Below are positions 10,874 through 63,227 of a DNA stretch of 64,000 nt, piece by piece (position 1 is the first letter of the stretch; each line of letters begins with the position of its first letter). The DNA is from Aurantiochytrium sp. KH105. Its lineage: Eukaryota; Sar; Bigyra; Thraustochytrida; Thraustochytriidae. The stretch lies in the NCBI GenBank assembly GCA_003116975.1, contig BGKB01000003.1, positions 248,001 to 312,000 on the forward strand, written 5' to 3'. The notes beneath the pieces were generated by a model. That model ran no database searches. It was given only the letters and a program-made list of their open reading frames with translations, and was not told the DNA's origin. A program made the position numbers and the translations under genes.

Positions 10874-13615
10874 TCATTTTTCAGCAGCAGCAGAAGCAGC
10901 AGCAAGAGGAGAGGAGGAGGAGACCGCTTCCGTTGTTGACGTCCGAGCCCGGCGTGTGCCATCTTGAGGAGCGGGATAGAAGCGGGTGTCAACCTCGCCC
11001 ATGACCTCGAACTCAATCTCATAAAAGGAAATCTTGTGCGCTTGGACCCAGAGCTCACACTCTTGAGTTACATGCTCGTTGATGACCTGGTCGAGGTCGA
11101 CGGTGACTAAGCGTTGCTGGAAACACTCCAAAGCGAAGTTAGCATTGGTCATCTCGGCGCGGGTCGGACATGGCGTGAGAATTGGATTGCGCTTCATCAC
11201 GGCCTCCAGCGATTCTCCTTTGTCGGCGTCAGCCTCCGTCCCGAGCATGATAGAAAGGAAGATCATTCCTGATCTTCGCAATAGCTGCATGTCGGCAGAT
11301 TGGACGACACCATGAATACGCAGGTGGCGCGTCTCGCCCACAAGCATGCTGTTATAAAAGTCCGTCGTTTGCAAGTCCGCTACAGTTGTAAAAGTCATGG
11401 GCTCGAAGCGCGTCCTAAGAGAATGCATGTTCGGGCTGTAGAGGAGCGACACTGTCGTGCGTTCTTTGATGTCGAGCTCCTGAGATGGGTTCTTGAGAAA
11501 GATGAAGTCATTAGGGGCCTGTGGCACAAAAACGTCCGCATTATCCTTTTCAACCTCGATGTTGACGGTGCGACGAATACGTTTCTGCCGTCGGTGAGAA
11601 GTAAATCCAGCTTGCGTTGCAATTTTGGGCATCATTGGATCATACATGATTGCAGTATCGGCAAGGGCGGGCAGCCATTTTTGCATGCTTCCGCGCAATC
11701 GCTTGGTCGTTTCTGGCAGCAGGCGCGCCAACTTGACGGCACCGGGATGGCCATGCAAAATGTCCTTTGCTTTGGTCTTTTTTTCATCCTTGGATCCTTT
11801 CTTGCCGCGATTTTGGCTACCTCCAGCGTTGTCTTCGGCAAGGGCAGAAGACGCTCGGGTGAGAAAATACGTAGAGTCTTTGGTTGAGCGCACACAGAGT
11901 GAGATGGGGTGCAAGCTCGACACAAATTGAGCACAAATGTGCACGCGAGTTGCCACCATCCAAGCGCCAGCGACGATGCTCATAAAGCTATCGGGGTCCG
12001 AGTTGGCGTACATTTGCATGACAAGTTCCTGACTGCTGTCTGGATCTGCGAGCTTGATCCAGCGATACTCGAATCTTGCTCCACGTGGTAAACAGAGAAT
12101 CTCGCGACGGCCCACAAAGGAAACGAGGCCCGAGACGGTGACGGGTCTCAGCTTTGCAGGTGAAGCGAGGTACTCGCCCGCAAGGTGATGGATCTTCTCG
12201 ACGGACGCCCAAGATGTGTCATCATGCATCGTGATTTCCTCAAGTTGCACAAGTTTGCATGCGTCGGCGGCGTCTATGGCAGTTGCAGGCACTATAAAAG
12301 GTTGAGCAAGCATCTCTTTGAGGCTCTTGGCCGGGGCAGGACCGGAAAGCTCAAGAGAAACTTCATACTTGGGAAAGAGATAATTTCGGGTCTGGTCCTT
12401 GGGCCCCTTGTAGCGTTTCAAGCGCGCTTTCGAAATGAACACGATTTCACCAGGCTGCACCGTACTATGCACGAGACGGCAAAGTTCATTCCAGCAAGTG
12501 ACGCGAATGGTGCCAGTTCCGTCGGAGAGATCGAAGGAGAAGTGTGCCCAGCTCCGCGAACGCGAGTTGTTCGTGGCATTGACTTGAATTGCAGACTTTG
12601 CCGTGACAAGACCAATGATAGGTGCCTCGATTGTGGTGCCCTTGACCGTGCCCGATGCCAGAGTCGCTGATGTTTCTTGAATGTCCTTGATACCTCCTTC
12701 GAGCCTCGAGCGGAGCGTACCGGGGTCCGCGTGGAACCGCTCAGCCATCTTTGCGGACATTTTGGTCAGCAGCTTGGGTTCCGGGGTCCATGAATTGTCG
12801 ACAAATATACTAGGCCCCACAGGCGAGCGAAGAACTTCTCGCCAGCCCTCAATGGTGTTATCGCGGATGCCGTGGCCGTCGCTTGGGTCGCGAATGAGGT
12901 GCTGGCACAGGATGCCATCGAGACAAGAGTATGGCATGGGCATGGAGAGCGCACTGTTGGGGCAATCGTCGGAAGACGCGGAAAGGTAAAAGTTCCTTCC
13001 CGGTACGAGAGGTCGCCGCCAAAAGGCCTCCGTCTCAATTTTCTCCTTTGCGGCCTCGTCTGCGGCGAGCAGATTAGGGTGGTAATGAATGCCCATAGTG
13101 GTGGCGAGCCTAGTCTTGGAATTGAAGGATGTGTTAAAGTTTGACACAATCTCCACGCGATGGCTCTCAACATGCGCCTGCATGAGAACGGGCACGCGCA
13201 CGTGGTTGATGATAATGTGTTTCCATGAGCTGCATTCGATATGGGCGAGAAGGTTGAAGAAGCCGGCGCGAACGAACTTGTTCAGCCTTGGGTGCAAGAC
13301 GACGCGTGCACGTTGCAGGCCATCGCTGACAACAAGATCAAACATTTCCGTCTCCTTGTACCCTTGACCCTCGAGCGAGAATTTGAGGTGTTTTGTGAGC
13401 TCCTCGTTGTCAGGAACATAGCGAAAGATGCCAATAATTTGGACGCTGCTCTCCGTAGAGAGCCGTCCAAGCGAATCTGGCGGGATATCATCACTGGTGA
13501 ACGTGCTGGCTAGAGACTCGATGCTCATGTATCGTAGGCCGCCGTACATGTGCGACTCGTAACGCGACAGGGGCTGCAGCGTGTTACGGATGGGTCCGGT
13601 CGAGAGGGATGCCAT
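10874..13615 (-). CDS. RADX-like RPA-related OB-fold protein
   Basis: A 913-residue protein resembling RADX, a vertebrate RPA-related single-strand DNA binding protein that restrains RAD51 at replication forks. Three OB-fold-like regions can be placed. The first, at about 55-160, contains DLVVSDGLQRARVVLHP and a following LNKFV. The second, at about 332-425, contains SDGTGTIRVTCWNELC then a GEIVFISKARLKRY strand. The third, at about 488-565, contains PVTVSGLVSFVGRRE, EYRWIKLADP and a strand ending VATRVHI. The SFVGR...YRWI pattern is what I associate with RADX rather than RPA1. There is no RPA-type C-terminal zinc finger. Residues 618-700 form a lysine-rich insertion. The C-terminus is a Ser/Ala low-complexity tail. 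A more general RPA1-like single-strand DNA binding protein is the alternative. The expected location is the nucleus. Confidence 0.62.
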   Translation of the reverse strand: MASLSTGPIRNTLQPLSRYESHMYGGLRYMSIESLASTFTSDDIPPDSLGRLSTESSVQIIGIFRYVPDNEELTKHLKFSLEGQGYKETEMFDLVVSDGLQRARVVLHPRLNKFVRAGFFNLLAHIECSSWKHIIINHVRVPVLMQAHVESHRVEIVSNFNTSFNSKTRLATTMGIHYHPNLLAADEAAKEKIETEAFWRRPLVPGRNFYLSASSDDCPNSALSMPMPYSCLDGILCQHLIRDPSDGHGIRDNTIEGWREVLRSPVGPSIFVDNSWTPEPKLLTKMSAKMAERFHADPGTLRSRLEGGIKDIQETSATLASGTVKGTTIEAPIIGLVTAKSAIQVNATNNSRSRSWAHFSFDLSDGTGTIRVTCWNELCRLVHSTVQPGEIVFISKARLKRYKGPKDQTRNYLFPKYEVSLELSGPAPAKSLKEMLAQPFIVPATAIDAADACKLVQLEEITMHDDTSWASVEKIHHLAGEYLASPAKLRPVTVSGLVSFVGRREILCLPRGARFEYRWIKLADPDSSQELVMQMYANSDPDSFMSIVAGAWMVATRVHICAQFVSSLHPISLCVRSTKDSTYFLTRASSALAEDNAGGSQNRGKKGSKDEKKTKAKDILHGHPGAVKLARLLPETTKRLRGSMQKWLPALADTAIMYDPMMPKIATQAGFTSHRRQKRIRRTVNIEVEKDNADVFVPQAPNDFIFLKNPSQELDIKERTTVSLLYSPNMHSLRTRFEPMTFTTVADLQTTDFYNSMLVGETRHLRIHGVVQSADMQLLRRSGMIFLSIMLGTEADADKGESLEAVMKRNPILTPCPTRAEMTNANFALECFQQRLVTVDLDQVINEHVTQECELWVQAHKISFYEIEFEVMGEVDTRFYPAPQDGTRRARTSTTEAVSSSSPLAAASAAAEK

Positions 13616-14328: not shown

Positions 14329-15588
14329 TCATGATGCTGATGATGACACATGCTCAATGATGGTAGCCTTGAGCTCGTCGTCGATCACGGGAACAGATGG
14401 GAGGGAAATGATACGAACCCTCCCGACCGTCTTAGGATTGGAAGCGCAAAGCCGAAAAAGCTCATTGGAAAAGTCGCGCACCTCACGCACAATGTCGACC
14501 GTGGGCGGAGGTGCAATGGCGCTCTTGTCGTCAAGAAAAGACAAGGATTTTGACACAAGATTAGAAAGACCAGCCACTGTTGGCTCAAAGCCCTCGGCTT
14601 GATGGACTCCTTCTCCAGCAAATGTTGCTTCGCCACGCTCCTCGAGATCGCGCTTGCGGTCCCAGCATGAGCTAATGATCGTGGGCAAGTCGAACATGAG
14701 GTCGCACGATCGGGACGTTTCATCGTGGTCCCAAAAGTAGAGGAACATGGGGCGATGACCTTCCGGGCCAGCCTTGGGTAGGCCCATGCGAACTGCTTTC
14801 GAGCGTGTGGCCGCAGAAAGTGCACCCTTGAGGTCAGTACCATCAAGCACGCGAGGAATCAGAACGTTAAGCACCGATGACTTGAGTTCGTATTGCTCAA
14901 ATTCGCCGCGTCGCTTTTCCATATCGACGGGTGTCGGATCATTCGGCTCCGCTGCCAAGCAGCTGACAGTGGGGACGACGAAGTTAAAAAAGTATGACAT
15001 GGCCATGCCGCGACCCGGGGAGGAGAGCGCGAGCGCAAGGCGGCGCTTCGTGTCGAGAAGCTCGGTTTCGGAATCGGCGCCGATAAAAAAGAACTTTTCG
15101 AGGAAAAAGAGCGCGCCGATCGAGACGAGGCCCATGGCGAACTCCTCGTGCAGCGAGCCTTCGTCTTCAGTCCAGATGGCGACGCCCGCGGCGATGAGTA
15201 TGCCGGAAACGAGAACGCGGACGAGGTCTTTGCTTCGCTGGAGACCGCGGCCCAAGAGCAATGACCATCCAAAAATCACAGCGGGCGTAATACCTGCAGA
15301 CACAAAGAGCACCGACGTAAATCCCTGCGCGCTGAGTTCGTCCTCCTTGACCTCGCGCAGGAAGGCCATGCCCCCGACAAGGAGTGCCACGAAAAAGAGC
15401 ACGTGCAGGCCGTCGCGGAAGTCCTTTCGAGGCGGCGCGAGCTCTGGCTCGAGGGTCTCGCGCACCTCGAACACGCGCTCGGCAAAACCATTTTCCCTTG
15501 CGCTCGCCACGGCGCTCTCACTCCACGCCCACGCGTCCTGGGCCTCCTGCGCGTCGGGCCCGCTCGTGGGCGCGACCTCGCCGCCCAT
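14329..15588 (-). CDS. STING-like four-helix membrane protein with cyclic-dinucleotide-type domain
   Basis: A 419-residue protein with the architecture of animal STING. After a 55-residue acidic N-terminus come four predicted membrane helices, at about 61-77, 90-112, 123-139 and 150-169. A cytosolic domain follows. GRGMAMSYFFNF at 192-203 matches the conserved GLAWSYYIGY segment of human STING: Ser198 aligns with Ser162, and Phe203 with the base-stacking Tyr167. VLNVLIPRV at 239-247 matches the central strand. Arg279 in GHRPMFLYFW fits Arg238. CDLMFDLP at 295-302 aligns without gaps with CVLEYATP, so Pro302 equals Pro264. VREVRDFSNELFRL at 367-380 then GRVRIISL at 389-396 fit the final helix and strand. 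Serine-to-Cys spacing is 97, against 95 in human. There is no C-terminal tail, and an insertion of roughly 45 residues lies near 312-360. An in-frame TAG 15 bases upstream fixes the start. The alignment is from memory, not a search. Confidence 0.75.
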   Translation of the reverse strand: MGGEVAPTSGPDAQEAQDAWAWSESAVASARENGFAERVFEVRETLEPELAPPRKDFRDGLHVLFFVALLVGGMAFLREVKEDELSAQGFTSVLFVSAGITPAVIFGWSLLLGRGLQRSKDLVRVLVSGILIAAGVAIWTEDEGSLHEEFAMGLVSIGALFFLEKFFFIGADSETELLDTKRRLALALSSPGRGMAMSYFFNFVVPTVSCLAAEPNDPTPVDMEKRRGEFEQYELKSSVLNVLIPRVLDGTDLKGALSAATRSKAVRMGLPKAGPEGHRPMFLYFWDHDETSRSCDLMFDLPTIISSCWDRKRDLEERGEATFAGEGVHQAEGFEPTVAGLSNLVSKSLSFLDDKSAIAPPPTVDIVREVRDFSNELFRLCASNPKTVGRVRIISLPSVPVIDDELKATIIEHVSSSAS

Positions 15589-16551
<963 letters not shown>

Positions 16552-19567: not shown

Positions 19568-22500
19568 CTACTGGATCAGACAAAAGGCGCTCCGCTTCTC
19601 GGACGCCGATGCAGTCTCCTTGGCCAGGGCAGAGACGGAAGCCTCTTTCTTTTCTTCCGTGATCTCCGTCTGCGACGCCGAGCGAATGGCGAGCTGCGCT
19701 TTGCGCTTGACAGAAATAGATGCCAACTGCGTCAGACTGTTGAAAATGAGATGCGCGGTCTCCCGCGTGCTAATGCACAAACGCATATAATGGTTTTTCC
19801 GGCCCCCCTTTGCCTCATCGTGGAACTCCCCTTCGCAGCGGTAAGACACTCGAGCCGTTGATTCGGTCATCACTTCGAGCGTTACGCCGAGATCTCGCAG
19901 ACTCTGATCCGGCCCACAGAGCACAGCGCAGCTCAAAGGCCACATAACCAACGCGTCATGCGCTGTCGAGACTTCAACAGCTCGGAAATGCACCATTTGC
20001 GCGTAAATGTCGTCGGTAGAGTGCACAAACAAATATATTCGTGCGCTGTCTTGCAAAGAAAAGCAATGGCACCCGTCCTGGTCAGGACCTAGAGGCGCAA
20101 ACTCGGTTCCCAGGCGGCATGCCGCACGCTTGTCGCATTTGGGCCCCAAAAGTGGCTCGAGCTCATGGTAGCATCGAAGACAGGCCACAAAGGCCGCAAA
20201 GCTTCGGTCCAGGTCCCCCTTATCGCGATCCTGCATGCCCACCACAAACATGGCTCTCGCGGCGGCATCTTCGGCCTCCCGTAGCTGCGTTTGTTGCCAG
20301 GAGCGAGCCAAATCGAAGCATCGCATCGAGAGCCGCTTCACGCGCTCTGGATTCCTCTCAATCTTGCTGAGGCCTTTGTTAATATATGAACACGCGACCA
20401 TGTGATGCTCCGAACCTGACTGCGCGTAGTGCGACCCAATCATGATTTGAAGTTGGTGCTCCGTTGCGGCAGCATACGAACCCATGGGACCCGAAAGATC
20501 ATCTTCGTAGGCTCGCGCGAGCTCAAGGTGCGTGTCTTTTTTGAAGAAGTGCATAAGAGAATCATACAATGGTTTGACGTCGGTCTCCACATTGTTGACC
20601 ACAAAGCGGTTCCCTCCCGCTTTGCAAAGGATTTGCAGCTTGTTACGTAATACATCAAGTGTCATTTGCATGTCCTCGTCCTTGAAATTGGGCGGCAAGA
20701 TCGATCGCAGAACGCGCGTGTCAATGTCCGACGACACGGCAGCCATGACGGCAATGTACTGGAAAATCTGGCGCACGGTCTCTGCCTGCTCGACGCTGCT
20801 CGTGACCCCAAGAATCTGGTCCACGACATTGCTACGGGAATTGTAAAAAAGGAGTCTCCGCACATCACTGGGAAGTGCGTCGGCGACGGTGACCATTCTT
20901 ACACCGCCAGAAAAGGCAAGATCAATGCCCAGTTCAGCAAGAGGGAGCGCTTTGATTCGACAAGATCCCGGATCGATCACGATCTCTGGGAAAAATACCT
21001 GCACGGTCTCTCCGAATCCTGCCAAAAAGGCCTCCGAGGTGCCAAACTTCGTGCTCAGCGATGCAGGCAGACGCACAAAGGTTGACTGCTCGAACAACAA
21101 GAAAGATCGCTTCACGCTCAGACCGCGAGAGGCCAACCTCGTGGCGATCTGAGGCACAAAGCCAAAGAGAACAGGCTCGCTCCTTGCGGTGTCGCCCACG
21201 ACGCCCAGGTAGCATTCGCCCGTGGCCAATCCGATGGAGGTCCTGATGCCGAGCTTGTCAAGCTCTTTGATTATATGCAGTCCAACATGGAGAGCATTTG
21301 AAGCCGCCCGGTGACTCTCATCGCTAAAATAGCCGACAAGAAGAAAATCAGAAGATTCCCGTTTGATGTGCAGGAGATCCCCGGATCCACCCGACAAAGC
21401 ATGCTGCACGATCAGCATGATCTTCTCCGTGAGAGCAAGGCGGTCCTTGTCAACGGCGAAGTCGCCGAGTCCATTGGCTGCGAGGATTGAAATTACAGTG
21501 CATTGTCGCGGGTCGAGTCGCGGCATGTGTCGCCCGGCCACAATCTGCCTCACCACAGGGCAAGGTGTGAACCTCGACAAGGCTTCAATCGACTTTTCGT
21601 CGTAATCGTCGTCAAAAACGCTGCTTGCTCGGCGTATTGCTCGCCGCGTCACTTCATTGCGCTGGTCAGGGTTGTTTGCAAACTTGAGGTCGCTTGACAT
21701 TTTCCGCAGCATCAAATGCACCTGCGCCGGCTGATAGACGTTCTCACTTTGATGCAGCCTCACAAAATCACGCGAATTGCGAAATTCATCAAAAAGTCGC
21801 TCAGCCAAGAAACCTTCCTTTCCGATGCGAGCATATGGGGTGGAAAAAAGGGCGTGAGGCTTGATGGCCTCGATCGAGGTGTGCGCGACAATTTGGTTGT
21901 CCATCGCGCGGGTGACAAGATCCCACGCGAGCACGACAGCCTCACCTGCCGAGACGATCTTGCAGCGAGCATCTACGCCGCCGACAATGTCCAGCTTGAT
22001 GTCTCCGAAAGCAATGCCTATACGAAGACTGAGGTGATTTTCTGTGCGAATGCTGGCATCAAGGGAGAATGATTGAAACTCTGTCCACAATGCGAGGGCA
22101 AAGGTTAGCGCCCGCCGCTGACACAGGTCCTCCTGAGTGCTGGACGCAGCGCTTGAGAAGAGAGGGTCGACTGGAAAAATGATTTCGGCCGTTTCGTCGT
22201 GAATACGAATGGTATCACCTTCGAAGCTCTGCACGCAGTCAAGCACAAGTTTCCAATACCGCGAAAAGACATCGGTGCACATCATGGGCGGACCTTTGTC
22301 GACGCTTGCTTCTATGTCTAGCATGGACGAAAATTTCAATCGCTCATTGGCGCTGTTCACGCTGCGCACAAAGCTTGTGAGTCCGCTGAGATGGACAACT
22401 ACGCAGCCTCCTGGCGCGACGAGCGTCGAGTTCGGGGAAATAATGCGCGCGCCCCGCGTGCGACTTGCCCAACGGAGATAATGTGGAGTCAAAGAGAGGA

Positions 22501-22870
22501 GACCAGCAAGCTTTTCTCGATTTCGCTGCTCCTGCGATGAATCCTTGGGAGGATCATCCCATGTTCTCAGTTCACGAAAGTAGTCGGAAATCAGATGTTT
22601 GGAATAGGATCTTGCTCTTTTTCGAGCAAGTTTTCGCGCGAAGTTCTGTAACTCTTTGGCCGCCCGTTCTCGCTTGGTGCTTTCTCGTCGTTGCCGCCCA
22701 GAGCAATCAACACTACTGTGAACCGCGGGCACAAATGAGACCTTGGCGAAAGAACTAGAGTTTCGAGGCGCCACGGTCCATAGAGTCGAAGTTGCCTTTC
22801 CAAGCACTTCATCGACGTTTAAAGAACTGGCCTCTTCGAGGATTAAATTATCGGCGCTGAAGGAGAACAT
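19568..22870 (-). CDS. Soluble adenylyl cyclase-like protein with two degenerate class III cyclase domains
   Basis: An 1100-residue protein laid out like soluble adenylyl cyclase (ADCY10): two class III cyclase homology domains in the N-terminal half, then a long helical region. A basic IQ-like helix at about 66-90 may bind calmodulin. Domain 1, at about 155-345, contains CVVVHLSGLTSFVRS, FEGDTIRIHDETAEIIFP and LRIGIAFGDIKLDIVGG. Domain 2, at about 455-585, contains CTVISILAANGLGDF, GGSGDLLHIKRESSDFLLVGYF and IRTSIGLATGECYLGVVGD. Neither domain keeps the usual metal-binding Asp of the FxDxxGFT motif: domain 1 has HLSGLT and domain 2 ILAANGLG. Strong catalysis is therefore doubtful and a regulatory or pseudo-enzyme role is possible. 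The AAA-type NTPase core of ADCY10 is not evident. No membrane segment. The start ATG at 22870 is the first in frame. Confidence 0.68.
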   Translation of the reverse strand: MFSFSADNLILEEASSLNVDEVLGKATSTLWTVAPRNSSSFAKVSFVPAVHSSVDCSGRQRRESTKRERAAKELQNFARKLARKRARSYSKHLISDYFRELRTWDDPPKDSSQEQRNREKLAGLLSLTPHYLRWASRTRGARIISPNSTLVAPGGCVVVHLSGLTSFVRSVNSANERLKFSSMLDIEASVDKGPPMMCTDVFSRYWKLVLDCVQSFEGDTIRIHDETAEIIFPVDPLFSSAASSTQEDLCQRRALTFALALWTEFQSFSLDASIRTENHLSLRIGIAFGDIKLDIVGGVDARCKIVSAGEAVVLAWDLVTRAMDNQIVAHTSIEAIKPHALFSTPYARIGKEGFLAERLFDEFRNSRDFVRLHQSENVYQPAQVHLMLRKMSSDLKFANNPDQRNEVTRRAIRRASSVFDDDYDEKSIEALSRFTPCPVVRQIVAGRHMPRLDPRQCTVISILAANGLGDFAVDKDRLALTEKIMLIVQHALSGGSGDLLHIKRESSDFLLVGYFSDESHRAASNALHVGLHIIKELDKLGIRTSIGLATGECYLGVVGDTARSEPVLFGFVPQIATRLASRGLSVKRSFLLFEQSTFVRLPASLSTKFGTSEAFLAGFGETVQVFFPEIVIDPGSCRIKALPLAELGIDLAFSGGVRMVTVADALPSDVRRLLFYNSRSNVVDQILGVTSSVEQAETVRQIFQYIAVMAAVSSDIDTRVLRSILPPNFKDEDMQMTLDVLRNKLQILCKAGGNRFVVNNVETDVKPLYDSLMHFFKKDTHLELARAYEDDLSGPMGSYAAATEHQLQIMIGSHYAQSGSEHHMVACSYINKGLSKIERNPERVKRLSMRCFDLARSWQQTQLREAEDAAARAMFVVGMQDRDKGDLDRSFAAFVACLRCYHELEPLLGPKCDKRAACRLGTEFAPLGPDQDGCHCFSLQDSARIYLFVHSTDDIYAQMVHFRAVEVSTAHDALVMWPLSCAVLCGPDQSLRDLGVTLEVMTESTARVSYRCEGEFHDEAKGGRKNHYMRLCISTRETAHLIFNSLTQLASISVKRKAQLAIRSASQTEITEEKKEASVSALAKETASASEKRSAFCLIQ

Positions 22871-37059: not shown

Positions 37060-38892
37060 ATGTCCACGGCCTACGTCGTGCTGGTCGCGGGATGCTTTGA
37101 CCTTTTGCACTCGGGCCACGTTGCGTTTGTGAGAGACGCACGCGCGCAGGCCAAAGCAGCAAGCCAAGGGCGTGAGGTGCGTCTCGTCGTGAGTGTTGCA
37201 GACGACGCTACGGCGCGGGAGAAAAATCATGGCATCGATCCTTCGTACCCCGCGGAAGAACGCCTCTTTTTCGTGCAGAACCTGCGCGACGTTGACGAAG
37301 CCATGATCAGCGCCGGAACTGGCAAGTCCTTCTTCGTGCACGACATCGAGTCCCTTGCACCGGACATGTACCTTACAAACGATGAGGAGGATTCTCAGGA
37401 AGGCAGTGCTGCTGCAACACGCGTTGGCGCACGCTATGTCAAGGCCCAGAGAATTCCTTTGCCAGGTCTTACGGCGCGAAGCACAACGTCAATCCGTGCA
37501 ATGCTCCGAAACAAGGGTGTGCCGGATCCTAACCGTGAGCCCGACCGCGGCAGTCACTCGGCGGACGTAGTCGTGCTTGAAGCAAGCACGAAGCCGAAGC
37601 TTGCGCCCCCCCGGCCGGAAGGCTCCAAGCCGGTTGTCTTCGTCTCTGGCTGTTACGATTTTTTGCACACGGGTCATGTTGCCTTTTTCAACAGCGCGGC
37701 TGCCCTCGGAGACTTATACGTCAGCATCGGCAGCGATGCAAACATCCTCCTGCTGAAAAAACATCAGGCAATGTTTCCAGAACAGGAACGCCTGACAATG
37801 GTGAGCGCGGTTCGAAGCGTGACAGAAGCGCGAGTTTGTCGCGGTAGCGGGATGCTCGACTTCGAAGCGGACCTAGATCTCGTCAAGCCAGACATCTTCT
37901 TTGTCAATGAGGATGGTCATCGCGAGAGCAAGGAGCAAGCATGCGCGAAGCGCGGAATTAAGTACATGGTAGGCAAACGCGAGCCGGAAGGAGGCTTGGA
38001 GGCACGTAGCTCTACAGATTTGAAGAAATCGCTCGCGCGCCAGGGTTCAAGCAAGATCGACTTTTCGACCGCTTCGGCTGCTGGCCTCTCGCGCGAGGAC
38101 TGGGAGGATTTGAACGGGTTCCCGTGGCGCATTTGTCTTGCGGGAGGGTGGCTCGATCAGCCATGGGTGTCCTCGGTGCTTCCAGGGTCCGTTATTGTCG
38201 TCAACGTTATGCCGCATCTTGCGTTCAAGACGAGATCAGGTTTGGCAACGAGCACGCGTCAGGTGGGCATTCGTCTTTGGGGTCCGCAGGGCCCGCCTTC
38301 GGACGTTCCTCCTCTCGAGCTCGCGCATTTTCTCTTTGGCGCCGAGAATCCTCCGGGCAGCAAGTACATTGCAGGCTCGCAAGATGCGATTGGACTTATG
38401 CTTCCTGGTATAAGCCGCCTCGACTACGATGGCGGATTCTGGCCCCATTCCGTATCGCAATGCATCGACCGTCAGGATACGACAGACTGGCTACAGCGCG
38501 TGCTCTGGTTAGTCCCGCTTCCGTCGCGCCCAGCAGGATATGACCCCCTCGAGATCAAGGATCTCTCCAAAGAGAATGTAGCGCTGCTCGCTGACGCAAG
38601 TTCCCGTGCATGGGCTGCCATCGAGGCGCACGATGCGCCGGGACTCGGCCAGGCGCTCTCCGACACTATGGTCGCCTGGAGTCGCTTGTTGCCCAACACT
38701 GTACCCCAACCCATGGCTGACGAGTGGTGCGCGCCATACCGAGACAAGCACCTTGGATGCTTATTCAGTGGCTGCGGCGGTGGATTTCTTCTCGTGATTT
38801 CCGACGGCGAGCCGGTGGACCGAGGCTTTCAAATTGAGATCAAAACCACGCATTGGCTCGACAACACATCAAAGAGCGCAGGAGAGACATGA
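37060..38892 (+). CDS. Tandem nucleotidyltransferase plus GHMP kinase-like fusion
   Basis: A 610-residue fusion of three recognisable modules. Module 1 (5-150) begins GCFDLLHSGH at 11-20, the cytidylyltransferase HxGH signature, and ends with ARSTTSIRAM at 139-148. Module 2 (190-330) repeats it with GCYDFLHTGH at 197-206, EQERLTMVSAVRSV and EARSSTDLKKS. Module 3 (355-600) has GHMP kinase hallmarks: WRICLAGGWLDQPW at 356-369, GSQDAIGLMLPG at 439-450 and FSGCGGGFLLVISDG at 569-583. Nucleotidyltransferase and GHMP kinase activities together suggest activation of a sugar or alcohol phosphate, comparable in logic to HldE or bifunctional fucokinase enzymes; two tandem transferase modules recall ethanolamine-phosphate cytidylyltransferase. 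The substrate cannot be read from sequence. The classic GHMP ATP loop PxxxGLGSS is not obvious, so the kinase module may be altered. Cytosolic, no membrane segment. Confidence 0.8.
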   Translation: MSTAYVVLVAGCFDLLHSGHVAFVRDARAQAKAASQGREVRLVVSVADDATAREKNHGIDPSYPAEERLFFVQNLRDVDEAMISAGTGKSFFVHDIESLAPDMYLTNDEEDSQEGSAAATRVGARYVKAQRIPLPGLTARSTTSIRAMLRNKGVPDPNREPDRGSHSADVVVLEASTKPKLAPPRPEGSKPVVFVSGCYDFLHTGHVAFFNSAAALGDLYVSIGSDANILLLKKHQAMFPEQERLTMVSAVRSVTEARVCRGSGMLDFEADLDLVKPDIFFVNEDGHRESKEQACAKRGIKYMVGKREPEGGLEARSSTDLKKSLARQGSSKIDFSTASAAGLSREDWEDLNGFPWRICLAGGWLDQPWVSSVLPGSVIVVNVMPHLAFKTRSGLATSTRQVGIRLWGPQGPPSDVPPLELAHFLFGAENPPGSKYIAGSQDAIGLMLPGISRLDYDGGFWPHSVSQCIDRQDTTDWLQRVLWLVPLPSRPAGYDPLEIKDLSKENVALLADASSRAWAAIEAHDAPGLGQALSDTMVAWSRLLPNTVPQPMADEWCAPYRDKHLGCLFSGCGGGFLLVISDGEPVDRGFQIEIKTTHWLDNTSKSAGET

Positions 38893-61988: not shown

Positions 61989-63227
61989 ATGAGCACAGCC
62001 ATGTCCGCTCATCGCCCAGAGCTCAAGCGGCAGTCGTCCGAGCTCTTCCTCGGCGTCGGCACGGCGTGCGAGCTACGTCTTATCAGCGTCGACGATGTCA
62101 ATGAGATCTTCAAGGTAGCCGTCCTGGTCCATTGCCATTTCGAGAACCCCAACTACTGCCGTGCATCGGGCAATCCTGCCGAAGACGAATTCGTTCGCGA
62201 CAAGAAATACGATATCGATGAATACTACGTCCCCAAAATTTCCTTGACGAATGTCATTGACGCCCAGTGGGAGGATGACGAAGTCACTGTCCGCGTGAAC
62301 CGCTGCACGGGAATCATCTGGACGACCAACAAGAACACCTACGACATTAACGAGAGCCTCGAGCTCTTCTCCTTCCCCTTTGACCGTCAGCTGTTTCGTG
62401 TTTGCTTCAAGTCGCCCAATGCAGCACTTCAGGAATGGGCTCTCCCCGTTGATATCCTCGATCTCGATCCCGTCATGAAGAACGGCAAGGTTATTTCTGA
62501 GAACGATTCGAAATACTTTGTCAGCTGCGAAATGAACTCGTGGAGCATGGTCGACCTTCAGGTCACGTTGGATCAGCGAGATCCGGACCCGGTCTCACTC
62601 ACCGCGGCCGAATTTGAGATCGCCATCATGGCCGAGCGCAACCCCATCTATTACTTGAACAACTACGTCGTTGTCATGTACATTATCGTACTGCTCAACA
62701 TTGGCAACATGGCGCTCAGTCTTACCGAACAGGTCGGCGAGCGCCTTGCCGCTTCGCTCACTCTTTTGCTTTCTGCCGTCGCCTTCAAGTTCGTCCTCGG
62801 CTCCACGCTTCCCAAGGTCGCCTACAGCACATGGGCTGACGCCTACGTGCGAATTTCCTTCATCACGCTCTTTATTGGCTGCGCTGAAAACTTTTTCGCT
62901 GCTCCCAAGGTGTGGTGCTCGAGCCGCTACTTTGACAGCGGGGACGCGACCGCGGTCCTTGCTGGGGTCGAGTCTTGCATTGCTGACAACGCCCTTGCGG
63001 CCACCAAGCTCGATGTGATTTTCCAGAGCCTCTTTATCGTTTGGTGGACCCTGGTCAATCTTGTGGCCGCCATCGTCTGCTACTTTCCCACGCTCGTGCA
63101 GCCGTCCTGGAAGTACGTTCTCGAGAACCAGATTGGCGACACTGAGGCCACCACACGTCGTACGAACGACGTTATTCTCTTGATTGGGGACGACGAAGAT
63201 GATGACGGCGACGAGGGCGACCATTAG
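61989..63227 (+). CDS. Pentameric ligand-gated ion channel homologue
   Basis: A 412-residue protein with the fold order of pentameric ligand-gated channels. The extracellular-type beta sandwich covers about 25-215 and includes the family hallmark LFSFPFDRQLF at 126-136, the Pro-Phe-Asp loop, without the flanking cysteines of metazoan Cys-loop receptors. A pre-helix ERNPIYYLNNY at 216-226 leads into M1 (221-244). M2 is about 251-273 (ERLAASLTLLLSAVAFKFVL), M3 about 285-302 and M4 about 345-367, followed by an acidic tail (DDEDDDGDEGDH). The M3-M4 loop is short, as in prokaryotic members. An in-frame TGA lies 9 bases upstream of the ATG, and no signal peptide is visible, which is odd for an extracellular N-terminal domain unless a spliced leader exon exists. 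Ligand and ion preference are unknown. Confidence 0.85.
   Translation: MSTAMSAHRPELKRQSSELFLGVGTACELRLISVDDVNEIFKVAVLVHCHFENPNYCRASGNPAEDEFVRDKKYDIDEYYVPKISLTNVIDAQWEDDEVTVRVNRCTGIIWTTNKNTYDINESLELFSFPFDRQLFRVCFKSPNAALQEWALPVDILDLDPVMKNGKVISENDSKYFVSCEMNSWSMVDLQVTLDQRDPDPVSLTAAEFEIAIMAERNPIYYLNNYVVVMYIIVLLNIGNMALSLTEQVGERLAASLTLLLSAVAFKFVLGSTLPKVAYSTWADAYVRISFITLFIGCAENFFAAPKVWCSSRYFDSGDATAVLAGVESCIADNALAATKLDVIFQSLFIVWWTLVNLVAAIVCYFPTLVQPSWKYVLENQIGDTEATTRRTNDVILLIGDDEDDDGDEGDH

Follow-up and report, generated by a model that had tools for sequence, protein, structure and literature searches.

Does a marine protist outside the animal line carry a STING-type receptor for cyclic dinucleotides and, if so, of which type is it and where would its ligand come from? 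This question was raised by one open reading frame in the window, i.e., the whole stretch of 64,000 nucleotides of Aurantiochytrium sp. KH105 that was analysed. An earlier note had read the frame as a four-helix STING homologue resembling animal STING, had inferred a membrane-bound cyclic-dinucleotide sensor in this lineage, either anciently inherited or transferred, and had added that a cGAS-STING-like pathway here would be a substantial addition.

An Intact Gene With Four Hydrophobic Helices

The frame proved to be real, and it was found to be a single open frame on the reverse strand that starts with ATG and encodes 419 amino acids. The motifs from which the homology had been read were all present, namely, GMAMSYFFNF from residue 194, VLNVLIP from residue 239, HRPMFLYFW from residue 278, and CDLMFDLP from residue 295. 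The spacings were likewise reproduced, with 97 residues from Ser198 to Cys295 and the last helix ending 29 residues before Ser198. The features are given below in window coordinates, and the basis of each call is shown in brackets.

14329..15588 (-): candidate bacteria-like STING gene (open frame, profile matches, and copy comparison)
15358..15414 (-): predicted hydrophobic helix 1, residues 59-77 (hydropathy)
15256..15312 (-): predicted hydrophobic helix 2, residues 93-111 (hydropathy)
15169..15225 (-): predicted hydrophobic helix 3, residues 122-140 (hydropathy)
15082..15138 (-): predicted hydrophobic helix 4, residues 151-169 (hydropathy)
14668..15015 (-): STING domain core, residues 192-307 (positions 2-101 of 137 of Pfam prok_STING)
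14980..15009 (-): stem helix motif GMAMSYFFNF, residues 194-203 (alignment)
14731..14757 (-): lid strand HRPMFLYFW, residues 278-286 (alignment)
14683..14706 (-): strand CDLMFDLP, residues 295-302 (alignment)
14533..14661 (-): insert-bearing stretch, residues 310-352 (alignments)
14440..14505 (-): STING-domain C-terminal helix, carrying the invariant F373 (alignment)

The helices were called as the strongest hydropathy segments; the four that had been claimed were recovered as predicted helices, each with a mean hydropathy of 1.85-2.07. Loops 1 and 3 were net acidic, and a net basic charge was seen in loop 2 and just after helix 4, a pattern that would fit a topology with both ends in the cytosol (N-in, C-in); the N-terminal stretch, for its part, carries a net acidic charge (6 basic versus 12 acidic residues). 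An insert of approximately 35 residues, whose exact limits depend on the alignment, lies within residues 310-352 and is absent from the 19 bacterial STINGs used for comparison.

Profile Matches to Bacterial STING Domains

The relationship of the protein to known STINGs was evaluated via profile searches. The Pfam profile prok_STING (PF20300) matched residues 192-307 of the whole protein (E = 1.6e-5, 25.4 bits; cut-off 27.1). The score was 27.1 bits for the isolated STING domain, equal to the cut-off, and 27.9 bits for the STING frame in a six-frame search of the genome, above the cut-off. The PADLOC model PDLC00729, which is named Effector and described as TIR, matched residues 190-307 (E = 7.7e-4) with its positions 153-255 of 310, a part of the model that probably corresponds to the place where TIR-STINGs hold their STING domain. 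A profile of our own was built from 19 bacterial STINGs, the window protein being excluded; these were encoded at 19 loci of 18 genomes, 3 of which belonged to a set of 40 that had been reached via loci and 16 to a set of 395 from the same phylum, with one genome in both sets. This profile scored 24.4 bits against the window protein, whereas the best of 2000 shuffles reached 3.2 bits; among 594 window frames (stop-to-stop, at least 60 amino acids), the runner-up scored 4.5 bits. A chance likeness to STING was ruled out by these two controls. Moreover, hhalign aligned the window protein with the 19-row bacterial alignment at a probability of 87.5 (E = 3.6e-6). A196, Y199, P245, and F373 were invariant across the window protein and the 19 bacterial STINGs, and N202, D300, and P302 were nearly so, in an alignment that was gapped near the lid and in which the identity of the window protein with the bacterial rows was just 14-25%.

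Other searches added little. A PDB search with the 20-row alignment retrieved bacterial STINGs, with E-values as low as 6.4e-51, and also animal STINGs, the best of them at E = 7.5e-6, which says little on the window protein because 19 of the 20 rows were bacterial. As a lone query against PDB sequences, the window protein gave one chance match, and its partial STING domain gave nothing. No match was obtained at E up to 1 in NCBIfam or among plasmids and phages, and the motif-pattern matches in viral and prokaryote contigs included no relative. The earlier claim of a four-helix STING homologue in a protist was borne out by the hydropathy segments, the prok_STING match, the 24.4-bit score, and the eukaryotic setting and purifying selection described below.

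Two readings of the gene were weighed against these matches. An unrelated four-helix membrane protein that resembles STING by chance is scarcely credible. Its helices gave a weak MASE3 match, with E = 0.11 and 12.5 bits for the whole protein and E = 0.019 and 15 bits for residues 1-182 (cut-off 31), but the shuffle and window-frame scores lay far below 24.4 bits, and two libraries, Pfam and PADLOC, matched the same residues. An origin as an animal-type STING (TMEM173), whether by descent or by transfer from animals or choanoflagellates, is very improbable as well, if slightly less so. Animal STING also has four helices followed by a ligand-binding domain, and its SYY stem is similar to the SYF of the window protein; GMAMSYF is close to the GLAWSYY described for human and metazoan STING (PMC12424679). 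However, D300 is a bacterial-type residue, and the animal profile STING_LBD (PF15009) was not among the matches of the window protein at E up to 1. Its six-frame search of the genome found none either, although that search was silent in every control too. Hence, the proposed STING profile check succeeded with prok_STING and failed with the animal profile, and the resemblance is to bacterial STINGs and not, as had been thought, to animal STING. No C-terminal tail with the TBK1 motif of animals was visible by eye.

Comparison With Bacterial and Protist STINGs

The window protein has the Y, N, R, DxP, and F positions in common with the bacterial CBASS STING effectors (CD-NTase-associated protein 12 in the PDB). 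The fetched bacterial proteins have TIR-type N-termini, two helices, or short N-termini, whereas the window protein has four helices; two hydrophobic helices precede the STING domain in 5 of the 19 (L134-L138). Furthermore, their lid reads RX(Y/F) or RXR, and the residue 310-352 insert is missing, whereas the window protein combines RPM with the insert. An assignment to the TIR-STINGs or to the two-helix bacterial TM-STINGs was rejected, given the four hydropathy helices and the lack of a TIR domain in Pfam. In a tree whose comparison rows were all bacterial (20 rows), the window protein sat on an end branch of 3.37 changes per column and had no supported place.

Culbertson and Levin (2023; PMC10732462) described bacteria-like STINGs (blSTINGs) from 26 microeukaryotes, Stramenopiles among them, and most of these proteins have four helices. 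They were typically found without CD-NTases, and they were suggested to sense nucleotides from outside. The eukaryotic host, the prok_STING match, and the four N-terminal helices that most of them have are common to the window protein. Stramenopiles are a named group among them; a CD-NTase is typically not found beside these proteins, and none was found in the exon-by-exon searches of the present genome. No difference between these proteins and the window STING is shown. Judged by these features, the window protein belongs to the bacteria-like STINGs that were known before from protists of scattered lineages, and its novelty is modest. Four-helix members in stramenopiles were already published in 2023. 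The main text of that paper does not mention Aurantiochytrium, Schizochytrium, thraustochytr- or Labyrinthul-, and the main text of the preprint of Li et al. (2025; PMC12424679) does not mention Aurantiochytrium, Schizochytrium or thraustochytr-; the gene may be in the supplementary lists of either. A literature search for thraustochytrid STING or cyclic dinucleotides had no STING among the matches listed. According to the same preprint, the STINGs of Stephanoeca diplocostata and Diaphanoeca grandis bind 3'3'-c-di-GMP at about 1 uM, cluster near bacterial STINGs, and belong to choanoflagellates with no detectable cGLR; stramenopile STINGs are present in its tree. The absence of a detectable cGLR from those genomes is similar to the present genome, in which the exon-by-exon searches found no CD-NTase. 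Binding was measured for the choanoflagellate proteins, whereas ligand binding by the window STING is predicted from sequence.

Residues of the Predicted Ligand Pocket and the Lid

In bacterial STINGs, the guanine is read by an arginine (R233/R230) and an aspartate (D252/D251) and is stacked between F171/L169 and Y235/Y232; I256/T255 would clash with 2'3'-cGAMP (PMC8748872). The residues were transferred via PDB chain 7ebl, whose numbering fits MySTING. This mapping places F203 at the stacking position, R279 and D300 at the guanine-reading positions, M281 at the position of the lid tyrosine, and I304 at the position of the clash. The guanine-reading arginine occurred in 16 and the aspartate in 18 of the 19 bacterial rows. 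The predicted pocket would hold the arginine, the aspartate, and the stacking Phe/Leu residue, and it lacks the aromatic lid partner. The lid motif R279-P280-M281 (RPM) is neither the class I RX(Y/F) nor the class II RXR, since the position of M281 is Tyr or Phe in the former and Arg in the latter. With moderate confidence, the ligand would be c-di-GMP or another 3'3' dinucleotide. Its identity is unsure because of the RPM lid and the report that the change of the lid tyrosine to arginine in MySTING costs nearly 1200-fold in affinity (PMC8748872).

Two Constrained Copies in a Eukaryotic Setting

A second STING copy was found on another contig (C19), and no third was found at E = 0.1 in the genome (76 Mb, 367 contigs). 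The two contigs were collinear over 20 kb; pieces of at least 900 bases had identities of 86-94%, the two longest having 93-94%. The copies thus appear haplotype-like, with one copy per haplotype. They differed by 31 synonymous and 3 nonsynonymous changes (pS 0.10, pN 0.003), which were distributed over codon positions 1, 2, and 3 as 4, 0, and 30. This excess of synonymous differences indicates strong purifying selection on the protein, and the gene looks conserved and functional.

The gene sits on a 695-kb contig and is surrounded by genes for a kinesin, a cyclin, nicastrin, and a chromatin remodeller, and further by an RPA/RADX-like protein and a class III cyclase. The GC3 of the STING frame was 0.667, and seven other frames spanned 0.56-0.785. 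A bacterial contaminant was ruled out by the eukaryotic neighbours on the long contig, the collinear second copy, and the GC3 value.

Several features of the surroundings were recorded separately. Upstream of the STING gene, before the cyclin gene is reached, lies a pure (GCA)32 run (15982-16077); the corresponding stretch of the other copy is shorter, and no run of at least 8 was found there. The next frame downstream of STING, on the same strand, encodes 913 amino acids (10874-13615, (-)); it contains OB folds and matches RADX at a score close to the cut-off. The cyclase frame (19568-22870, (-)) encodes 1100 amino acids, and its class III nucleotide cyclase domain is in two stretches. Class III nucleotide cyclases make single cyclic nucleotides and are not known to make cyclic dinucleotides. 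Toward the far end of the window (61989-63227, (+)), a frame of 412 amino acids gave a weak match (E = 9.4e-5, 22.4 bits; cut-off 26) to PF02931, the ligand-binding domain of Cys-loop receptors, which would be notable in a protist if real.

Searches for a Cyclic-Dinucleotide Enzyme

The proposal of a cGAS-STING-like pathway had been joined to a call for CD-NTase and Mab21 genes in the same genome, and the genome contigs were searched exon by exon. Neither Mab-21 nor OAS1_C was found, and neither matched in any control genome. SMODS was not found in the contigs and matched in 3 of 14 control genomes. A bacterial CdnE query gave only a chance hit (E = 0.28) and matched in 3 of 3 bacterial control genomes; the frame hit was rejected because it read, by eye, as cyclophilin-like. 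GGDEF and EAL, the domains of c-di-GMP turnover, had no match in the genome at E = 0.01, and they matched in 8 and 6 of 14 control genomes, respectively. In the window, a Pfam scan of 28 of the 55 frames of at least 200 amino acids, including the STING frame, gave no match to a CD-NTase family. Its sole nucleotidyltransferase-type match was CTP_transf_like (37060-38892), which is presumably another fold than CD-NTase. Little weight can be put on these CD-NTase negatives, since the search went exon by exon and the Mab-21 and OAS1_C profiles were silent in all controls. With no cGAS, OAS, SMODS, or CdnE relative found in these weak searches, the pathway that had been proposed is not supported, and the window STING by itself does not show a new pathway.

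The bacterial loci were inspected for partners within 1500-base flanks, so that neighbours at a greater distance would be missed. A neighbouring frame with the GS...DxD nucleotidyltransferase motif was found in 10 of the 19 loci. The pattern is unspecific, since at locus L129 it was met within the STING frame itself; in L140, a downstream frame matched the GG form of the motif and was not counted. Among the two-helix STINGs L134-L138, only L138 had such a neighbour. For the frame beside the L124 STING, Pfam gave no match at E = 0.001. This frame was called a CD-NTase (CdnE) on the strength of its GS...DxD motif, its adjacency to a STING gene, and its similarity to frames that neighbour three further STINGs.

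A Probable Membrane-Anchored Receptor and the Proposed Source of Its Ligand

Taken as a whole, the reading that we consider probable is that of a blSTING, i.e., a membrane-anchored, bacterial-type cyclic-dinucleotide-binding domain whose ligand is probably bacterial. The four N-terminal helices would anchor the cytosolic domain, which would dimerise around a single cyclic dinucleotide with 3'3' linkages, c-di-GMP being the likeliest. F203 may stack on the guanine, R279 and D300 may read it, and I304 may disfavour 2'3'-cGAMP. The ligand is probably supplied by bacteria because the genome searches disclosed no enzyme that could produce it, and an outside, bacterial source is the simplest reading. 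As with other STINGs, the lid would close upon binding, and the proteins would then assemble side by side into oligomers within the membrane; a bacterial STING forms filaments upon c-di-GMP binding (PMC9402430). The best guess for the output would be autophagy, by analogy with the choanoflagellate STING that is required for 2'3'-cGAMP-induced autophagy (Woznica et al., 2021; PMC8592570).

Two alternatives accept the STING domain and differ in its use. The gene may encode a receptor that serves a cGAS-STING-like pathway of the cell itself, with a diverged CD-NTase of the same genome making the cyclic dinucleotide that it senses. The motif-bearing neighbours in 10 of the 19 bacterial loci and the cGLR kept beside STING in two choanoflagellates (PMC12424679) speak for such a pairing. 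However, neither the scanned window frames nor the genome search disclosed a CD-NTase, the CdnE hit being due to chance, and we regard this pathway as unlikely, although the Mab-21 and OAS1_C negatives are weak. Still less likely is a STING domain that was kept but is no longer a cyclic-dinucleotide sensor, serving as a membrane scaffold or binding another ligand. M281 in place of the lid aromatic or arginine, the insert of about 35 residues, and the very long branch would suit such a loss. By contrast, comparison with the 19 bacterial STINGs shows conservation of the stem motif and of R279, D300, P302, and F373, several of them at ligand-reading positions, and F282 beside M281 might, as a guess, take the stacking place.

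Within the preferred blSTING reading, a narrower proposal may be put forward only tentatively, as we would sooner doubt it than rely on it: the stand-alone four-helix STING of this thraustochytrid with its RPM lid may be a dedicated, receptor-only sensor of bacterial cyclic dinucleotides in a host without its own cyclic-dinucleotide enzyme. If true, a marine heterotroph that does not belong to the animal line would have a STING system consisting of the receptor alone. Culbertson and Levin (PMC10732462) asked whether blSTINGs function without CD-NTases and, if so, by what means. The gene is intact, appears single per haplotype, and looks strongly constrained, and thraustochytrids are cultured and used for oil production, which would make the question testable in a stramenopile.

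Frames of PfaA-type PUFA synthases were also seen in the genome, and they suggest that the host is a thraustochytrid stramenopile. The profile gave 24 matches, of which the best reached 930 bits and none exceeded the cut-off of 1010.1 (18 of 68 candidates scored); it also matched in 11 of 14 control genomes, none above the cut-off. The frames occurred in paired copies (contigs C72/C155 and C290/C61), with parts of the profile on different contigs. The best-scoring frame, as far as it was translated, is presumably very similar to OrfA of Schizochytrium.
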